Both the position numbers and the translations under genes were made by a program. Positions 2,975 to 19,011 of a stretch of DNA of 64,000 bases are shown piece by piece. Source of the DNA: Coriobacteriia bacterium (GTDB lineage Bacteria; Actinomycetota; Coriobacteriia; Coriobacteriales; Eggerthellaceae). Numbering within the stretch: the stretch's first letter is position 1; every line of letters starts with the position of its first letter. The notes beneath the pieces are model-generated. The model was not told the origin of the DNA, made no database searches, and was given only the letters and a program-made list of their open reading frames with translations. The stretch is taken from positions 62,001 to 126,000 of the forward strand of contig JAUMVJ010000004.1 of assembly GCA_030530215.1 (NCBI GenBank), read 5' to 3'.

Positions 2975-4255
2975 ATGGCTCTTATAGTTACAAAATTCGG
3001 TGGCACTTCGGTGGCAAGCCCCGAGCGCATCAAGAACGTGGCTAAACGCCTTGTTGCCAAGCGTCAAGCGGGCGACGATGTCGTTGCCGTGGTTTCGGCT
3101 ATGGGTAAGACCACCGATGAGCTGGTAAGCCTTGCCAAGGCGATGAACGGCGCTCCTGCCAAGCGCGAAATGGACATGCTTCTTTCCACCGGCGAGCAGA
3201 CTTCCATGGCGCTTTTGGCCATGGCCATTCAGGCTTTGGGATATAAGGCCATCAGCTTCACCGGCTGGCAGGCGGGCATTATCACCGACAGCGAGTTCTC
3301 CCTCGCCAAGATCGAGAACATCGACGCTCATCGAATTCGCGAGGCGATTGCCGACGGCTACATTGTGGTTGTGGCTGGTTTTCAGGGTCTGTCCGATTCG
3401 GGCGACATCACCACTTTGGGCCGAGGTGGTTCCGACACCACGGCGGTGGCCTTGGCTTATGGCATTCAGGCCGATGTGTGTGAGATTTATTCCGACGTCG
3501 ACGGCGTGTACTCGGCGGACCCCCGCGTGGCACCGCGTGCGCGTAAGCTCGATTACATTTCCTACGACGATATGCTCGAGATGTCGAGCGCTGGCTCGGG
3601 CGTTCTGCAGGCGCGAGCAGTTGAGTTCGCTCGTAAGTACAAGGTCGTTATCCATTCCCGTTCGGCGTTCTCCGATGCGCCCGGCACTTTGATCAAGGAG
3701 GCTGTACCCACTATGGAACAGGCTGTTGTTTCCGGTATTGCTCATGACACTTCCGAAATCCGCTTCACGCTTCGCGGCCTGCCCGACAATCCTGGCGTTG
3801 CGGCAAAGCTGTTCGCCACGCTTGCGGCCTATAAGGTCTCGGTCGACATGATCATTCAGAACAGCGTTGCCAACGGTAAGGCGAACATCAGTTTCACCTT
3901 CCCCGGCAATCAAAAGCAAGCTGCCGAAGAAGCCGTGTCTCAGGTTAAGCGCGATATGCCCTTCGATAGCGTCGATGTTGACGAAGATATCGCTAAGGTC
4001 TCCTTGGTTGGCACTGGTATGAAGTCGAGCCCGGGCATCGCTGCGCGCGCCTTTAAGTCTCTTGCCGATAACGAGATCAGCATCAAGATGATTTCGACGA
4101 GCCCGATTCGCATCTCGGTAGTGGTTGAGGCAAGCCAGGTCACCGCTGCAGTTCGTTGCTTGCATACCGAGTTTGGCTTGGATTCCGATACGGTGTTCGA
4201 GGAAACTCAGCTTTCAGCCGAGGAAATAGCTGCCAAGATGAACAAGGGCCGTTAA
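2975..4255 (+). CDS. lysC: Aspartate kinase
   Basis: Aspartokinase phosphorylates L-aspartate in the first step of lysine, threonine, methionine and diaminopimelate synthesis. The 426-residue protein has the amino-acid kinase start motif KFGGTSVA (residues 7-14), the STGEQTS segment typical of the family, and two C-terminal ACT-type regulatory domains (about 262-425), which in known enzymes bind lysine and/or threonine for feedback. The ATG at 2975 is preceded by AAGGAAGAAGG and gives the canonical N-terminus MALIVTKFGG. An in-frame ATG at 3713 has AAGGAGG 11 nt upstream and could make a separate regulatory beta subunit, as in Bacillus and Corynebacterium enzymes. The partner gene asd lies about 1 kb downstream on the same strand. 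Confidence 0.97.
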   Translation: MALIVTKFGGTSVASPERIKNVAKRLVAKRQAGDDVVAVVSAMGKTTDELVSLAKAMNGAPAKREMDMLLSTGEQTSMALLAMAIQALGYKAISFTGWQAGIITDSEFSLAKIENIDAHRIREAIADGYIVVVAGFQGLSDSGDITTLGRGGSDTTAVALAYGIQADVCEIYSDVDGVYSADPRVAPRARKLDYISYDDMLEMSSAGSGVLQARAVEFARKYKVVIHSRSAFSDAPGTLIKEAVPTMEQAVVSGIAHDTSEIRFTLRGLPDNPGVAAKLFATLAAYKVSVDMIIQNSVANGKANISFTFPGNQKQAAEEAVSQVKRDMPFDSVDVDEDIAKVSLVGTGMKSSPGIAARAFKSLADNEISIKMISTSPIRISVVVEASQVTAAVRCLHTEFGLDSDTVFEETQLSAEEIAAKMNKGR

Positions 4256-6409: not shown

Positions 6410-9400
6410 CTAGAGTTTTCCGAAGAACAGAAGTTTCAGTCGTTGGAAGAAGCCCAACTTCATTTCCTTGGGGGCAACCTGAATCCCCTCCGCTTCGGGC
6501 GCGGGCTCGGGGGTTTCGATTACGGTTGCCTGCACTTCTTCGATGATGGGCGTCGGAGTGGGAGCAGACTCGTCTTTAGGTTGTGCTGGCACATGGTTCT
6601 CGCTGAGCTTGCTGATCACTTCTTCGGTCGCATCATGAGAGGAACCGAAATTCTGAACAGATGCTTCTTCTTTTACGGATTCATCGTTTTCGGGCTTTTC
6701 GTCTTTGCCTGCATTGCTGCCAGGGGAGGCGGACTCTAATGATTGGCTTGGAGCATCTGCCTTGGTTTTTTGTCCATCGGTGCTCTTAGGCGCGTCTTCG
6801 TTTGTAGGCGCTTCAGGCTCTTCATTTGCTTCTTCCGCTTTGCTGGGCGTGGGCTCGGGGGAGGGGACATCGACGCTATCTGCTTCGCCGTCCTCTTCCG
6901 CTTTTAAAGAATCATCGTCCTTCGCGTCTTCGTCCTTGTGTGCGGCTTTCGCAAATGCGGCACGAAGAGCCGCGCCCGCCGCCTTCATGTCGGTGGCTTT
7001 GGGGGCGGGGGTCTCTTTATCAAGTGAGGGTTCAGCGCTTGTTGCGTCTGCTTCAACGGGTTCTTCGTCAGCGGTGGCGGTGGCGGGCACGGACGTTGCT
7101 GCAGCCGGTTTGGCAACCAGGGGCTCCACCTCCTGCTCAAGAATCTTGTTGGTTTGGACGCGCAGGTTTACGCTGTCGGCCTGCGCTTGGCGGGCTACGA
7201 TCGCGTCGTCGTTGTCGTTGCGCGCCTTTTCAATCAGATACTCCTGAGCATTGAAGGATTTGATCTGGCCGTTTTCATCGGTGTCGGCAAAGTACTCGAG
7301 CGGCGTGTACTGCAGGTTGGGCTGCAACATGCGCAGCTTCGCAGTATCGGAGAGGCATACGTCCAGGAACTCGTCGATGCGCGCTTTCTCGGACTCGCCG
7401 CGAACCGGCCAGGCAATCTCGATGCGCTTGTCCATGTTGCGGGTCATCAGGTCGGCGGACGACAGGTAGTATTCGCGGTCGCCGCGCGGTCCGAAGGCGT
7501 AGATGCGGCTGTGCTCAAGCATGCGTCCGACGATGGAGACGACGCGGATGTTTTCGGTGTAGCCCTCGAGTCCGGGGATCAGGCAGCTGATGCCGCGCAC
7601 GAAAAGCGTGGTGGGCACGCCCGCCTGGGAGGCCTCGACGAGCTTGTCGATGATGTCTTTGTCGGTGACGGAGTTCGTCTTGAAAAGAAGCCCGCAGGCT
7701 TTGCCTGCCTGGGCAAGAGCAATCTGCTCGTCAACCTTGGAAAGAATCAAGGGCTTGATCTGCAGAGGGGCCACCACGAGCGTTTGGTAAGCGTCCGAGG
7801 TGTTTTCCAGGTTCATGTTGCGGAAGAAAATTGCCGCATCGCGCCCGATGTCGGGATCGGCGGTCATGAACGAGAAGTCGGTGTAGAGGCGACTCGTCTT
7901 CTCGTTGTAGTTGCCGGTGCCGAGCTGGGTGATGTGCTGGAGGCCCTCGTCGGTGATACGCGTTATCGAGCAGATCTTGGAGTGAACCTTGAAGTCATGG
8001 AAGCCGTAGATAACCTTCGCACCGGCTTCTTCGAAGCGCTGCGACCACTCGATGTTATTGGACTCGTCGAAGCGGGCGCGCAGCTCGAAGAGGGCGGTGA
8101 CGTCTTTGCCGTTTTCGGCAGCAGTGATCAGGGCCTCCGCCAGGCGCGACTGAGACGCAAGGCGATACAGCGTGATTTTGATTGACCCAACGGATGGATC
8201 GACCGCTGCCTCTTGCAGAAGCGACACGAAGGGATCCATAGATTCGTAGGGGTAGCTCAAAAGCTTGTCGCCTTCGATTACCTGCTCGATGATCGATCGA
8301 TTTGGGTCGATGCAAGCAGGCCACGAGGGCTCAAAGTGCGGGCTCGACAGGCGAGCTGCGTTTTCCTCGTCGATCATGGAGCCCAAGCCCCAGCAATAGC
8401 TCAAATCCATGGACACCTTGGTGATGAATACCTGGTGAGGCTCAAGTTCAAGCTTTTCGAGCAAGAACTGCTCGGTTACCTTGGACAAGGGGATGTCGGA
8501 CTCCAAGCGCACCGGCGCCAGGCGAGCGCGCTTCTTCAGGATGCGCTTCATGTGCTCGCGGTAGTCGTAGTCGATCTCGGAGATGTAGTCCGAGTTCGGG
8601 TCGATGTCGGCGTTGCGCGTTACGCAGATGATGCTTGCACGCTTGGTTTTATACATGTTGAAGACGTCGGGCGCAATGAGCTTGAGCGCCTGCTCAAGCA
8701 GGATGAACTGGGCATCCTCGCCAGGCAGCTTGATAACGCGCTTTGCCTGATGCGGCATCGGGATAAGGCCGAAAGTCGCATCCTCGGCTCCGAGGTTCTT
8801 GTGCTTCTTTTTATCTTTGGAGCTGCTAACCGACTTGTTGCGGCTGCGCGAGCCTTCCTCGTCTAAGCGAATGAGCACGTAGAGTTTGCCGTTTTCCAGA
8901 TGGGGGAACGGGTGGCGTGCGTTGATGACCTGCGGCGAGAGATAGGGAACCACGTTGGTGTCGAGGTAAAGGCGCAGGTACTTTTCCTGGTCGGCGTCAA
9001 GCTCTTCGGGCATCACCTGATGGATGCCCTCTTCTGCGAGCTCGTCGCGCAGCTCCATGTAGATGCGCTCGTATTCGGGGTAGAGCTCATGGCAGCGTGC
9101 GTAGATGGCGTCGAGCTGCTCAGCGGGCGTCATGAGCGTTTTGGAATCGCGCAGTTCCTTTTTCACCAGGGATAAGTCGGTAAGGCTACCGACGCGCACC
9201 ATGAAGAACTCCTGCAGATTGCTCTGGAAGATGGCGGCGAAAGTGGGACGTTCGAGCAGGGGGACGTTTTCGTCCTCAGCCTGATCGAGGCAACGCTTAT
9301 CGAACTCGAGCCAGGAAAGCTCCCTGTTCTGCATGTAGGGCATGGCCTTTTTATGCGTTAAAACCCCTTGCGTATCGGCCACGTTGCTTGAGGTCTTTTT

Positions 9401-15956: not shown

Positions 15957-16245
15957 ATGCGGCGCTAGAATTGGCACACCGCATTGCCGGGCTGTGCTTG
16001 GCGTTCGGCGAAGTGCGCCAAATTAGGCCATTTGAGTGGCTTGGAGCAATGCTATTTCGATACCGTTTACGGCCGTTCGCGGAAAACAGCTGCGCCGTTC
16101 GTAAAATGCAGGTTTCGTGCGCTTGCAAGCGTGGGGGAGCCTAATTAAAGTTTTAAATACATCCCCAAGATGAACGAGCCAGATGGCAGGCCTTCCCCGA
16201 CCTGACACCGACCCGACATCCTCAGCAGAAAAGAAGGTTAACATC
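15957..16245. other. Non-coding gap upstream of the 63-residue membrane protein
   Basis: About 290 bp with no convincing gene. TTGCAA (16123-16128), 17 bp, TAAAGT (16146-16151) on plus is a possible promoter giving a leader of about 90 nt for the small gene at 16246. I saw no other structured element in it. Confidence 0.35.
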
Positions 16246-16437
16246 ATGGCTACCGTAGTTGCCTCCGGCATGTCGGCCACCCCAGCCGAAAACACCACTT
16301 CCGTTGAAGCAAAAATCGTCGAGGAGCATGAGCAGGGAACCCTGACTTCCAACAAGCAGGTTGCTGAGCTTTTTGGCATGGCCTTCGTTGCGCTTGCGTT
16401 CAACGTGGCTTGCGTTGCCGTAGCTGCTTTTCTCTAA
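16246..16437 (+). CDS. Small single-pass membrane protein, unknown
   Basis: A 63-residue protein that I do not recognise. The first about 42 residues are polar, with a Glu-rich helical stretch (SVEAKIVEEHEQGTLTSNKQ). The last about 20 residues (LFGMAFVALAFNVACVAVA) form one hydrophobic membrane segment running to the C-terminus. The layout resembles a tail-anchored small protein. AAGAAGG precedes the ATG at 16246; a longer in-frame version from 16183 lacks a ribosome binding site. It stands alone, with a terminator-like hairpin 125 bp downstream, between purN and the convergent purH. Coding status rests on the start signal and the clean hydrophobic segment. Confidence 0.6.
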   Translation: MATVVASGMSATPAENTTSVEAKIVEEHEQGTLTSNKQVAELFGMAFVALAFNVACVAVAAFL

Positions 16438-16560: not shown

Positions 16561-16605
16561 AATATGCCCACCCCGTCATCGGCGAGGTGGGCATTGCTTT
16601 TGTGC
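16561..16605. terminator. Bidirectional terminator between the small membrane gene (+) and purH (-)
   Basis: Arms ATGCCCACC (16564-16572) and GGTGGGCAT (16586-16594), with a T-rich tail on both strands (TGCTTTTGTG on plus, ATTTTCGTG on minus). It ends the plus-strand gene and, about 120 bp past its stop, could also end the purO-purH transcript. Confidence 0.7.
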
Positions 16606-16714: not shown

Positions 16715-17893
16715 TTAGTGATGGAACAGGCGCATGCCGGTAAAGGCGAGGGCGATGCCGTATTTGTTGCACGCATCGATTACGTTGTCGTCTCGGATGG
16801 AACCGCCAGGTTCGGCGATGTAGTCGACGCCGGATTTGCGGGCGCGCTCTACGTTATCTCCGAAGGGGAAGAAGGCATCGGATCCGCAGCTGACGCCCTT
16901 GAGCTGGGCAACCCATTCAGCGCGCTCTTCGCGAGTGAGGGGCTCGGGCTTCACTTTGAAGGTTTCCTGCCAAACGCCCTCGGCAAGTACGTCTTCGTAT
17001 TCGTCGGAGGTGTACACGTCGATAGCGTTGTCGCGGTTGGGACGGCGAATGCCGTCGACGAACTGCAAACCGAGTACCTTCGGGTGCTGGCGCACGAACC
17101 AGTTGTCCGCCTTGTCACCGGCGAGCCTTGTGCAGTGGATGCGGCTTTGCTGGCCTGCACCGACGCCGATGGTCTGGCCGTCCTTCACATAGCAGACGGA
17201 GTTCGATTGGGTGTACTTCAGCGTGATAAGTGCAACGATGAGATCGGTTTTTGCGTCTGCGGGAATTTCTTTATTTTCGCTTACCACGTTGTCGAGGAGC
17301 GCCTCGTTGATTTCGAAGAAGTTATGCCCCTGCTCGAAGGTGATACCGAAAACATCCTTGCATTCCTGCTGTGCAGGAACATAGGCCGGATCGATCTGAA
17401 CGATGTTGTAATTGCCCTTTTTCTTGGACTTCAAAATCTCGAGAGCTTCTGCGGTATAGCCGGGTGCGATGATGCCATCGGAAACCTCGTACTTAAGGTA
17501 GCGGGCGCAGGCTGCGTCGCACACGTCGGAAAGGGCTGCCCAGTCACCGTAGGAGCACAGGCGGTCAGCACCGCGGGCGCGAATGTAGGCGCAGGCGATA
17601 GGGCTCAGCTCGGCGTCATCGTCGACGAAGTAGATCTGCTTGTCGACGTCGGTCAGGGGCTTGCCAACGGCTGCGCCAGCGGGGGAGACGTGCTTAAACG
17701 AGGCGGCGGCGGGCATGCCTGTTGCTTCTTTGAGTTCTTTGACGAGCTGCCAGGAATTGAGTGCATCAAGGAAGTTGATGTAGCCAGGGCGGCCATTGAG
17801 TACGGTTACCGGCAAATCCTCACCGTTCTTCATAAAGATGCGCGCTGGCTTTTGGTTGGGGTTGCAACCGTATTTGAGTTCCAATTCGTTCAT
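16715..17893 (-). CDS. purH: AICAR transformylase, stand-alone (PurH C-terminal domain only)
   Basis: Formylates AICAR to FAICAR with 10-formyl-THF. The 392-residue protein starts directly in the transformylase domain (LELKYGCNPNQKPARIF) and contains the catalytic Lys-His pair in SFKHVSPAGAAVG. It lacks the N-terminal MGS-like IMP cyclohydrolase domain that makes bacterial PurH about 510-530 residues long. This is not truncation: GAAGGAGCACCC sits just before the ATG and the N-terminus is that of known stand-alone transformylases. The missing cyclohydrolase activity is supplied by the purO gene 15 bp upstream, in the same transcript under the ZTP riboswitch. Confidence 0.95.
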   Translation of the reverse strand: MNELELKYGCNPNQKPARIFMKNGEDLPVTVLNGRPGYINFLDALNSWQLVKELKEATGMPAAASFKHVSPAGAAVGKPLTDVDKQIYFVDDDAELSPIACAYIRARGADRLCSYGDWAALSDVCDAACARYLKYEVSDGIIAPGYTAEALEILKSKKKGNYNIVQIDPAYVPAQQECKDVFGITFEQGHNFFEINEALLDNVVSENKEIPADAKTDLIVALITLKYTQSNSVCYVKDGQTIGVGAGQQSRIHCTRLAGDKADNWFVRQHPKVLGLQFVDGIRRPNRDNAIDVYTSDEYEDVLAEGVWQETFKVKPEPLTREERAEWVAQLKGVSCGSDAFFPFGDNVERARKSGVDYIAEPGGSIRDDNVIDACNKYGIALAFTGMRLFHH

Positions 17894-17908: not shown

Positions 17909-18538
17909 TTAGTCGCCGAGGTTCTTGTTCCAGATGCTTACCTGGCCGTTGACGTTTGCATAGAGCGAAACTTTGTTGTCCTGGTTGAGCGCGTTCCACA
18001 CTTCGTCTGCTTCGGGCATGCTTACTTTAACCGGCTCGCCGGCAAAGCTCGGAAGGGGATTGCCGTCGCCTTGATAGGTGCTGATGAAGTAGCCTTCGCC
18101 TTCTTCGATGCCTTCGTAGCAGAAGAAGTTTCGCTGGCATGTGCCTGCGTTGTGCTTGAGGATGGAGATTTCAAAGCTGCAGTCTTCACGGATGTAGGTA
18201 CTGATGCGCGGGGTGTAATTGGGTTCGTCGGGTTCGTATTCGCGCGTCATGCAAGCTTCGTGCCACCCCAAGTCACGGATGGTGTCGGTTTGATCGCCAT
18301 TGGTTACGATCAGGGCGCCTTCGACCTTGCGTACTGGATGGTAAATGATCAAGCTTGGGTCTTCGAGTTTGGAGGGGTCGTGAGCCTCGGTGCGGATACC
18401 GTCGGCGGTCTCGGTGAAGATGCGGTTACGACTATTGGCGCTGCGGCCCATGATCCAGTAGTAAACGCGGTTTTTGCCGACGACGATGCCACGCCCCGGA
18501 TAGGGGTTGTTGCGAAGCAGTTCGAGCAGGTCAGTCAT
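17909..18538 (-). CDS. purO: IMP cyclohydrolase, archaeal (PurO) type
   Basis: Closes FAICAR to IMP, the last step of purine synthesis. The 209-residue protein matches the PurO-type IMP cyclohydrolase family first described in archaea: N-terminal NPYPGRGIVVGKNRVYYWIMG, then the NRIFTE region, and the C-terminal GEPVKVSMP region. It is unrelated to the MGS-like cyclohydrolase domain of normal bacterial PurH. The ATG at 18538 is chosen because AAGGAAGGA lies 7 nt upstream; an upstream ATG at 18559 would bury that site inside the gene. It is the first gene of a two-gene operon with purH, preceded by a ZTP riboswitch and terminator. Confidence 0.93.
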   Translation of the reverse strand: MTDLLELLRNNPYPGRGIVVGKNRVYYWIMGRSANSRNRIFTETADGIRTEAHDPSKLEDPSLIIYHPVRKVEGALIVTNGDQTDTIRDLGWHEACMTREYEPDEPNYTPRISTYIREDCSFEISILKHNAGTCQRNFFCYEGIEEGEGYFISTYQGDGNPLPSFAGEPVKVSMPEADEVWNALNQDNKVSLYANVNGQVSIWNKNLGD

Positions 18539-18613
18539 GGTAAGTCCTTCCTTTGCCATCGCGGGTGCCTGGTTTGCCGGTTTAGTGCGCGATTTTGAGC
18601 ATGCGCGCTAATG

Positions 18614-18654
18614 AAAAAGGGCAAACCAAGCTCATTGCTGAATTTGGTTTGCCC
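18614..18654 (-). terminator. Riboswitch-controlled terminator in the purO leader
   Basis: On the minus strand an 11-bp perfect stem (GGGCAAACCAA / TTGGTTTGCCC, 18654-18644 and 18629-18619) is followed by TTTTT. The first four bases of the 5' arm, GGGC, are also the 3' end of the aptamer pseudoknot (CCGTCTGGGC). Ligand binding and terminator formation should therefore exclude each other, giving a gene-ON switch. Confidence 0.9.
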
Positions 18655-18730
18655 AGACGGTCGGCTTGAATATGAAAATGGTCATCTGCTCCCCCGTGGT
18701 GATCCACAATTCCGTCAGTCACACATGACT
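18651..18730 (-). promoter_or_regulatory. ZTP riboswitch (pfl motif) controlling purO-purH
   Basis: Read on the minus strand, this matches the pfl/ZTP aptamer in order. The P1 strand GTCAT is complementary to the later ATGAC. GACTGACGGAA supplies the pseudoknot strand. GTGG-ATCA-CCAC is the P2 hairpin, followed by the conserved CGGGGGAGC and finally CCGACCGTCTGGGC. GACGG pairs with CCGTC as the pseudoknot requires. These aptamers bind ZTP and ZMP (AICAR), which accumulate when 10-formyl-THF is short, and the genes downstream here make the enzyme that uses AICAR and 10-formyl-THF. Assigned by eye against the known consensus. Confidence 0.93.
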
Positions 18731-18735
18731 GCTCG

Positions 18736-18744
18736 ATTTTAGCA
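18736..18744 (-). promoter_or_regulatory. Extended -10 promoter of the purO-purH operon
   Basis: TGCTAAAAT on the minus strand is an extended -10 element (TGn plus TAAAAT). The expected start, about 7 nt downstream, falls at the first base-paired strand of the ZTP aptamer, so the riboswitch would sit at the extreme 5' end of the transcript. No good -35 is seen. Confidence 0.55.
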
Positions 18745-18786: not shown

Positions 18787-18813
18787 AATGAAAAGGCCCC
18801 GAAGAGCCTTGAA
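18787..18813 (-). terminator. Terminator after the distal tRNA-Glu
   Basis: Minus strand AAGGCTC, TTCG tetraloop, GGGCCTT (one T-G pair), then TTCATTTT. It ends the tRNA transcript before the purO promoter. Confidence 0.75.
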
Positions 18814-18818
18814 TTAAC

Positions 18819-18895
18819 TGGTACTCCCGATCGGATTCGAACCGACGATCTCCGCCTTGAGAGGGCGGCGTCCTAAACCGCTAGACGACGGGAGC
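18819..18895 (-). tRNA. tRNA-Glu (CTC), copy 2
   Basis: A full cloverleaf on the minus strand: GCTCCCG acceptor strand pairing with CGGGAGT, anticodon stem-loop CCGCC-CTCTCAA-GGCGG with anticodon CTC, T-arm GGTTCGAATCC and an encoded CCA end. It decodes GAG. It is identical in sequence to the copy at 18930-19006. Confidence 0.96.
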
Positions 18896-18901
18896 ATATG
18901 T

Positions 18902-18924
18902 AAAAGGCTCCGAAGAGCCTTGAA
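18902..18924 (-). terminator. Terminator-like hairpin between the two tRNA-Glu genes
   Basis: Minus strand AAGGCTC, TTCG, GAGCCTT followed by TTTACAT. It has perfect pairing and a short T-run, so it could attenuate transcription into the second copy or act as a processing hairpin. Confidence 0.6.
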
Positions 18925-18929
18925 TTAAC

Positions 18930-19006
18930 TGGTACTCCCGATCGGATTCGAACCGACGATCTCCGCCTTGAGAGGGCGGCGTCCTAAACCGCTAGACGAC
19001 GGGAGC
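18930..19006 (-). tRNA. tRNA-Glu (CTC), copy 1
   Basis: Same sequence as the copy at 18819-18895: anticodon CTC in a CTCTCAA loop, encoded CCA. It lies 5 bp downstream of tRNA-Gln in the same direction and is evidently co-transcribed with it. Confidence 0.96.
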
Positions 19007-19011
19007 ACAAA

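Follow-up and report, generated by a model that had tools for sequence, protein, structure and literature searches.

A ZMP/ZTP riboswitch predicted to control a purO-purH1 operon in a Coriobacteriia bacterium, and its association with purO across the class

Introduction

In the ZMP/ZTP (pfl) riboswitch class, reportedly validated by Kim et al. in 2015, a terminator overlapping the 3' region of the aptamer is common but not universal. This overlap has already been noted for the class (PMC2864571), and its ON mechanism relies on the ligand to prevent the strand displacement of P3 (PMC10085676). The locus described here lies in a stretch of 64,000 nucleotides, hereafter the window, in whose numbering all coordinates are given. 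It resembles the pfl switch of C. beijerinckii in having a full aptamer, a pseudoknot, a 3' strand of P3 common with the terminator, a purine gene downstream and an expected ON response. However, the C. beijerinckii terminator branch-migrates through the pseudoknot (PMC10085676), while that of the window would invade only the GGGC of P3.

The first gene behind the leader is like the PurO IMP cyclohydrolases MTH1020 and TK0430, sharing with them the PF07826 domain and an NTN-hydrolase-like fold. In contrast to MTH1020 the PurO of the window is bacterial, about 24% identical by structural alignment and below the archaeal equivalog cut-offs, and the partner here is the folate-dependent PurH1, not PurP as for MTH1020 and TK0430. 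Unlike bifunctional PurH/ATIC, PurH1 has no N-terminal IMP cyclohydrolase domain, and the unrelated PurO takes that step. PurO has been reported to be rare in bacteria, with 22 of 1266 genomes (PMC6797443). The switch and its mechanism are themselves of known kinds; the genomic context is what the present analysis adds.

Results

The original prediction placed all parts of the pfl/ZTP aptamer in order on the minus strand, and we indeed found every element where it had been located. The features of the promoter and aptamer are as follows.

18736..18744, minus strand: extended -10 promoter element TGCTAAAAT, three bases upstream of the aptamer, at a conserved position
18644..18732, minus strand: ZMP/ZTP riboswitch aptamer (RF01750)
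18729-18725 and 18685-18681, minus strand: stem arms GTCAT and ATGAC
18712..18716, minus strand: pseudoknot 5' strand GACGG, pairing with CCGTC
18707-18704, loop, and 18699-18696, minus strand: hairpin GTGG, ATCA, CCAC
18696-18688, minus strand: CGGGGGAGC, a sequence element named in the original prediction
18656..18660, minus strand: pseudoknot 3' strand CCGTC, partner of GACGG at 18716-18712
18660-18651, minus strand: CCGTCTGGGC, the end element of the original prediction, including GGGC

The comparison with the Rfam ZTP model that had been proposed for this leader gave a full-length match (model positions 1-86 of 86) of 59.0 bits against a gathering threshold of 39, with E = 5e-07 when both strands of the window (64 kb) were scanned against 4227 Rfam families. 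This leader aptamer is the one ZTP match in the genome of the window (a 1.47-Mb assembly, estimated to be 63.6% complete), and it stands upstream of the purine genes purO and purH1, as expected of a class that precedes purine or one-carbon genes. We also aligned 37 aptamers from Coriobacteriia and Clostridia using MAFFT without structure, and counted the pairs of the family structure and the pseudoknot; 86% of the cells were paired and changes on both sides were seen at 14 pairs, as high as in none of 500 shuffles, keeping in mind that the sequences were picked by the family model and some bias towards the structure is expected. On each of the five measures the observed covariation was higher than in any of the 500 shuffles, and when the structure was slid out of register the percentage paired was far lower and the covariation was lower as well. 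Covariation in relatives supports P1, P2, P3 and the pseudoknot, save the outer two pairs of P3, where it is weak; the pseudoknot strands were paired in 37 of 37 sequences, with one compensatory A-U to G-C change among them. The Rfam score, the covariation and the recurrence described below rule out a chance resemblance to a ZTP riboswitch. Judged by its sequence, the leader RNA is a member of the known ZMP/ZTP class, with a mechanism of known kind.

The extended -10 element had been predicted to lie at the right distance from the aptamer, and this position proved to be kept, since 45 of the 67 distinct leaders have a TGNTANNNT element in the corresponding place (shuffled upstream bases gave a mean of 1.24 and a maximum of 6). 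Among the 45 Coriobacteriia leaders, 38 have an equivalent of the extended -10. Neither a -35-like hexamer nor an ordinary -35/-10 promoter was found upstream of the aptamer, and the promoter would therefore belong to the extended -10 type. Going by the class and the anatomy, we expect RNA polymerase to begin close to the first base of the aptamer stem P1. The tRNA unit upstream of the riboswitch ends with a terminator-like hairpin of its own. Just upstream of the riboswitch the minus strand carries tandem, near-identical repeats of 106 nt (18791-18896 and 18902-19007), each of which holds one tRNA-Glu(CTC) gene together with its terminator; in the sister genome G058, tRNA-Gln is followed by one tRNA-Glu only. 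That tRNA genes commonly adjoin the operon was rejected, as none was present in the 47 short-flank loci scanned.

Downstream, the aptamer runs into the expression platform.

18619..18654, minus strand: intrinsic terminator hairpin of 11 bp, fold -21.2 kcal/mol, its 5' arm opening with the aptamer GGGC (18654-18651)
18654-18644 and 18629-18619, minus strand: terminator arms GGGCAAACCAA and TTGGTTTGCCC
18614..18618, minus strand: U-tract TTTTT, directly after the 11 perfect pairs

As the original prediction had it, the GGGC end is common to the aptamer and the 11-bp terminator, on which coordinates and fold agree: GGGC at 18654-18651 is the 3' strand of P3 and also the start of the terminator 5' arm. 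When these four basal pairs were withheld, the terminator energy went from -21.2 to -8.6 kcal/mol. We regard it as very probable that a ZMP/ZTP-sensing transcriptional ON riboswitch controls the two-gene operon purO-purH1, the ligand response and the direction of control being predicted from the class and the anatomy. Without ligand, the 3' arm of the terminator would pair with GGGC and the seven bases after it, pulling P3 apart, and the polymerase would stop at the U-tract. When 10-formyl-THF runs short, PurH1 would stall and ZMP and ZTP would build up; they would stabilise the aptamer and its pseudoknot and keep GGGC within P3, allowing the polymerase to read through. Read-through would yield more PurH1, which would convert ZMP to FAICAR, and more PurO, which would convert FAICAR to IMP.

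The genes behind the leader are the following.

18545..18554, minus strand: putative Shine-Dalgarno region of purO, AAAGGAAGGA
17909..18538, minus strand: purO, PurO-type IMP cyclohydrolase, fold like MTH1020 PurO
16715..17893, minus strand: purH1, AICAR transformylase lacking the cyclohydrolase domain, aligning with the C-terminal half of PurH/ATIC
16564..16594, minus strand: terminator-like hairpin after the operon, 12 pairs and then a T-rich tail

Translation of purO most likely starts at 18538 and not at the ATG of the longest ORF at 18559, because of the Shine-Dalgarno AAGGAAGG and an equivalent ATG start in the relative G146. The product matches PF07826 with 160.5 bits (gathering 28.1) and is similar in sequence to MTH1020; its AlphaFold model (pLDDT 83.6) gave three MTH1020 entries as the only significant PDB matches, at TM 0.70. 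The cut-offs of the archaeal purO equivalogs were missed (TIGR01922, 36.2 against 158.35 bits; NF003167, 45.8 against 150 bits). purH1 begins 15 bp after purO, and its product matches NF005492 from 1 to 390 of 390 with 711.7 bits (cut-off 415), while its score against bifunctional PurH TIGR00355, 298.4 bits, stayed below the cut-off of 528 and covered only model positions 206-500. Over its whole length PurH1 aligns with the C-terminal half of human ATIC at 473.7 bits; several bacterial PurH structures gave 88-102 bits, and the protein is much closer to the eukaryotic enzyme than to these. The PF07826 and NF005492 matches agree with the initial identification of the pair as purO plus a transformylase-only PurH in place of a fused PurH. 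It had also been proposed that the first reaction of the operon uses ZMP as a relative of the ligand; ZMP is indeed consumed within the operon, but it is itself a ligand of the class, and the step belongs to the product of the second gene, PurH1, PurO acting on FAICAR. Between purN and purH1 the plus strand holds an ORF of 84 aa (16183-16437) with a hydrophobic C-terminal stretch, for which no Pfam or NCBIfam match was found.

We surveyed 298 Coriobacteriia genomes, with PurO in 62 and a ZTP match in 54. One of the latter (G134) was discarded as a ZTP switch without PurO, its 34-bit match being below gathering and inside the recA coding sequence. The riboswitch was thus present in 53 of 62 purO genomes, where it precedes the PurO domain by 77-189 nt, and was absent from all 236 genomes without purO (Fisher p = 9e-50, which overstates independence as the genomes are related). 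Conservation in related Coriobacteriia, which had been suggested as a check on the leader, is seen as riboswitch plus purO in 53 genomes. None of the 62 purO genomes has a full-length fused PurH, their best PurH match being of partial strength, with E between about 1e-65 and 1e-88, while most PurO-free genomes have a full-length PurH with E near 1e-180 to 1e-206. Wherever ZTP control was found in the class, in 53 of 53 genomes, the arrangement was purO with purH1. The original prediction was right that this is not the fused PurH, but the pair is no peculiarity of the window and is also found in Clostridia. A third arrangement of the last two steps occurs in G270, G287 and G257, where PurH1 is accompanied by an unlinked second ORF, 216-226 aa long, that carries the PurH cyclohydrolase (MGS) domain; as each has such a PurH2-type ORF, they were rejected as PurH1 genomes missing the cyclohydrolase. 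No ZTP riboswitch was found in these three genomes (loci L097, L098 and L100 with L107, L108 and L105), which indicates that the riboswitch follows purO and not the split transformylase. In G126 (L115) we noticed a perfect direct repeat of 232 nt of the ZTP leader (3135-3366 and 7598-7829, 4463 bp apart); the copies flank unrelated genes, and the second is an orphan aptamer without a gene in position for control.

Nine PurO genomes have no detectable riboswitch, so the riboswitch is dispensable for the operon. This, together with the control being a predicted one, could be taken to mean that the aptamer of the window is a relic and that the operon is constitutive, its transcription being no longer controlled. 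We hold this to be improbable, since the conserved core, the pseudoknot, the promoter position and the perfect terminator anchored on GGGC have all been preserved, and 53 genomes share the combination of riboswitch and purO.

A hairpin anchored on GGGC, of -10 kcal/mol or better, was found in 41 of the 45 Coriobacteriia leaders, and in 33 of those 41 the eight bases after it include four T or more. About a quarter of the Coriobacteriia leaders lack a clear U-tract after the hairpin, so the expression platform is not uniform across the class. Pairing of the terminator through the pseudoknot strand, near a T-rich stretch, was noticed in 8 of 22 clostridial purO leaders; the 3 matches among the 45 Coriobacteriia look incidental. 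In two leaders of one genus, L004 (G225) and L005 (G039), the occurrence of CTCCTTCC in the platform and of GGAAGGAG as the Shine-Dalgarno suggests translational control. That the switch of the window, too, acts mainly on translation by masking the ribosome binding site is scarcely credible, for although L004 and L005 have no U-tract and their CTCCTTCC is by eye complementary to their own GGAAGGAG, in the window five T come directly after an 11-bp stem, some 60 nt ahead of the ribosome binding site, and a stretch complementary to this site was not noticed in the platform there.

Four genera vary in the presence of the unit (g1, to which the window belongs, g4, g9 and g11), and the riboswitch, PurO and the split PurH change together every time; in three of them, that of the window included, the change adjoins purN. 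In g1, the sister genome G058 has purM-purN-purH with a fused purH, while the window has purM-purN and then, convergent to them, purH1-purO-riboswitch. No remnant of purH was found beside purN in the window; the genes past its riboswitch (tRNA-Gln, tRNA-Glu, a BTAD gene and secA) sit on a different contig in G058. The convergent layout of purMN and purH1-purO seen in the window recurs in G146, which belongs to another genus. In g11 (G112 against G134) the genes on both sides are conserved, and riboswitch-purO-purH1 stands in place of the fused purH; the replacement also carries about 2.8 kb with what by eye appear to be MarR-like and MFS-like genes. In g4 (G102 against G279) the change lies beside purN and one further common gene, in inverted orientation. 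An in-place exchange was rejected for the g9 pair G252 and G072, which have no genes or flanks in common in the stretches compared. On balance we lean towards the view that in Coriobacteriia the ZTP riboswitch, purO and purH1 form one unit which has repeatedly replaced, or been replaced by, a fused and riboswitch-free purH, often at the same site by purN, the riboswitch being a dedicated part of the unit and not a general one-carbon regulator.

Beyond the class, a scan of GTDB genomes gave at least 595 loci with PurO relatives, of which the best 80 were analysed (72 Clostridia by name and 8 Coriobacteriia). Among these 80, purH1 follows purO in 73, is absent from the available flank in 6 and precedes purO in one, L180 of Eubacterium sp. 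MSJ-13, where the ZTP riboswitch is followed by purH1 and then purO. The riboswitch is present at 30 of the best 80 loci, namely 8 of 8 in Coriobacteriia and 22 of 72 in Clostridia. Where the flank was long enough, purN was found immediately upstream of purO at 2 of 28 loci carrying the riboswitch against 31 of 49 without it (p = 9e-7, uncorrected for relatedness), and the clostridial riboswitch-purO layout is found mostly where purO-purH1 stands apart from purMN. The simplest reading would be that the riboswitch serves those purO-purH1 pairs that are transcribed independently. In the PurO tree, which has long branches and unsettled bootstrap, 15 clostridial rows fall inside a well-supported group of 51 rows with the window, and this nesting makes a transfer of PurO between the phyla likely.

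Discussion

We found no description of a ZTP riboswitch paired with purO in our literature search, outside which lies Kim et al. 2015, a paper that may mention purO. That paper aside, the tight coupling of riboswitch and purO and their repeated exchange with a fused purH are, as far as the searched literature shows, undescribed. The present survey suggests that bacterial PurO is frequent among gut and rumen Clostridia and Coriobacteriia, in contrast to the rarity reported earlier (PMC6797443).

For the riboswitch class itself this leader is one more well-supported example. More useful is the wider pattern, in which a riboswitch is bound to one of two non-homologous solutions for the same metabolic step. 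Species of one genus with and without the unit thus offer a natural experiment on why a stand-alone purO-purH1 is placed under ZMP/ZTP control and a fused purH of the same class of bacteria is not.
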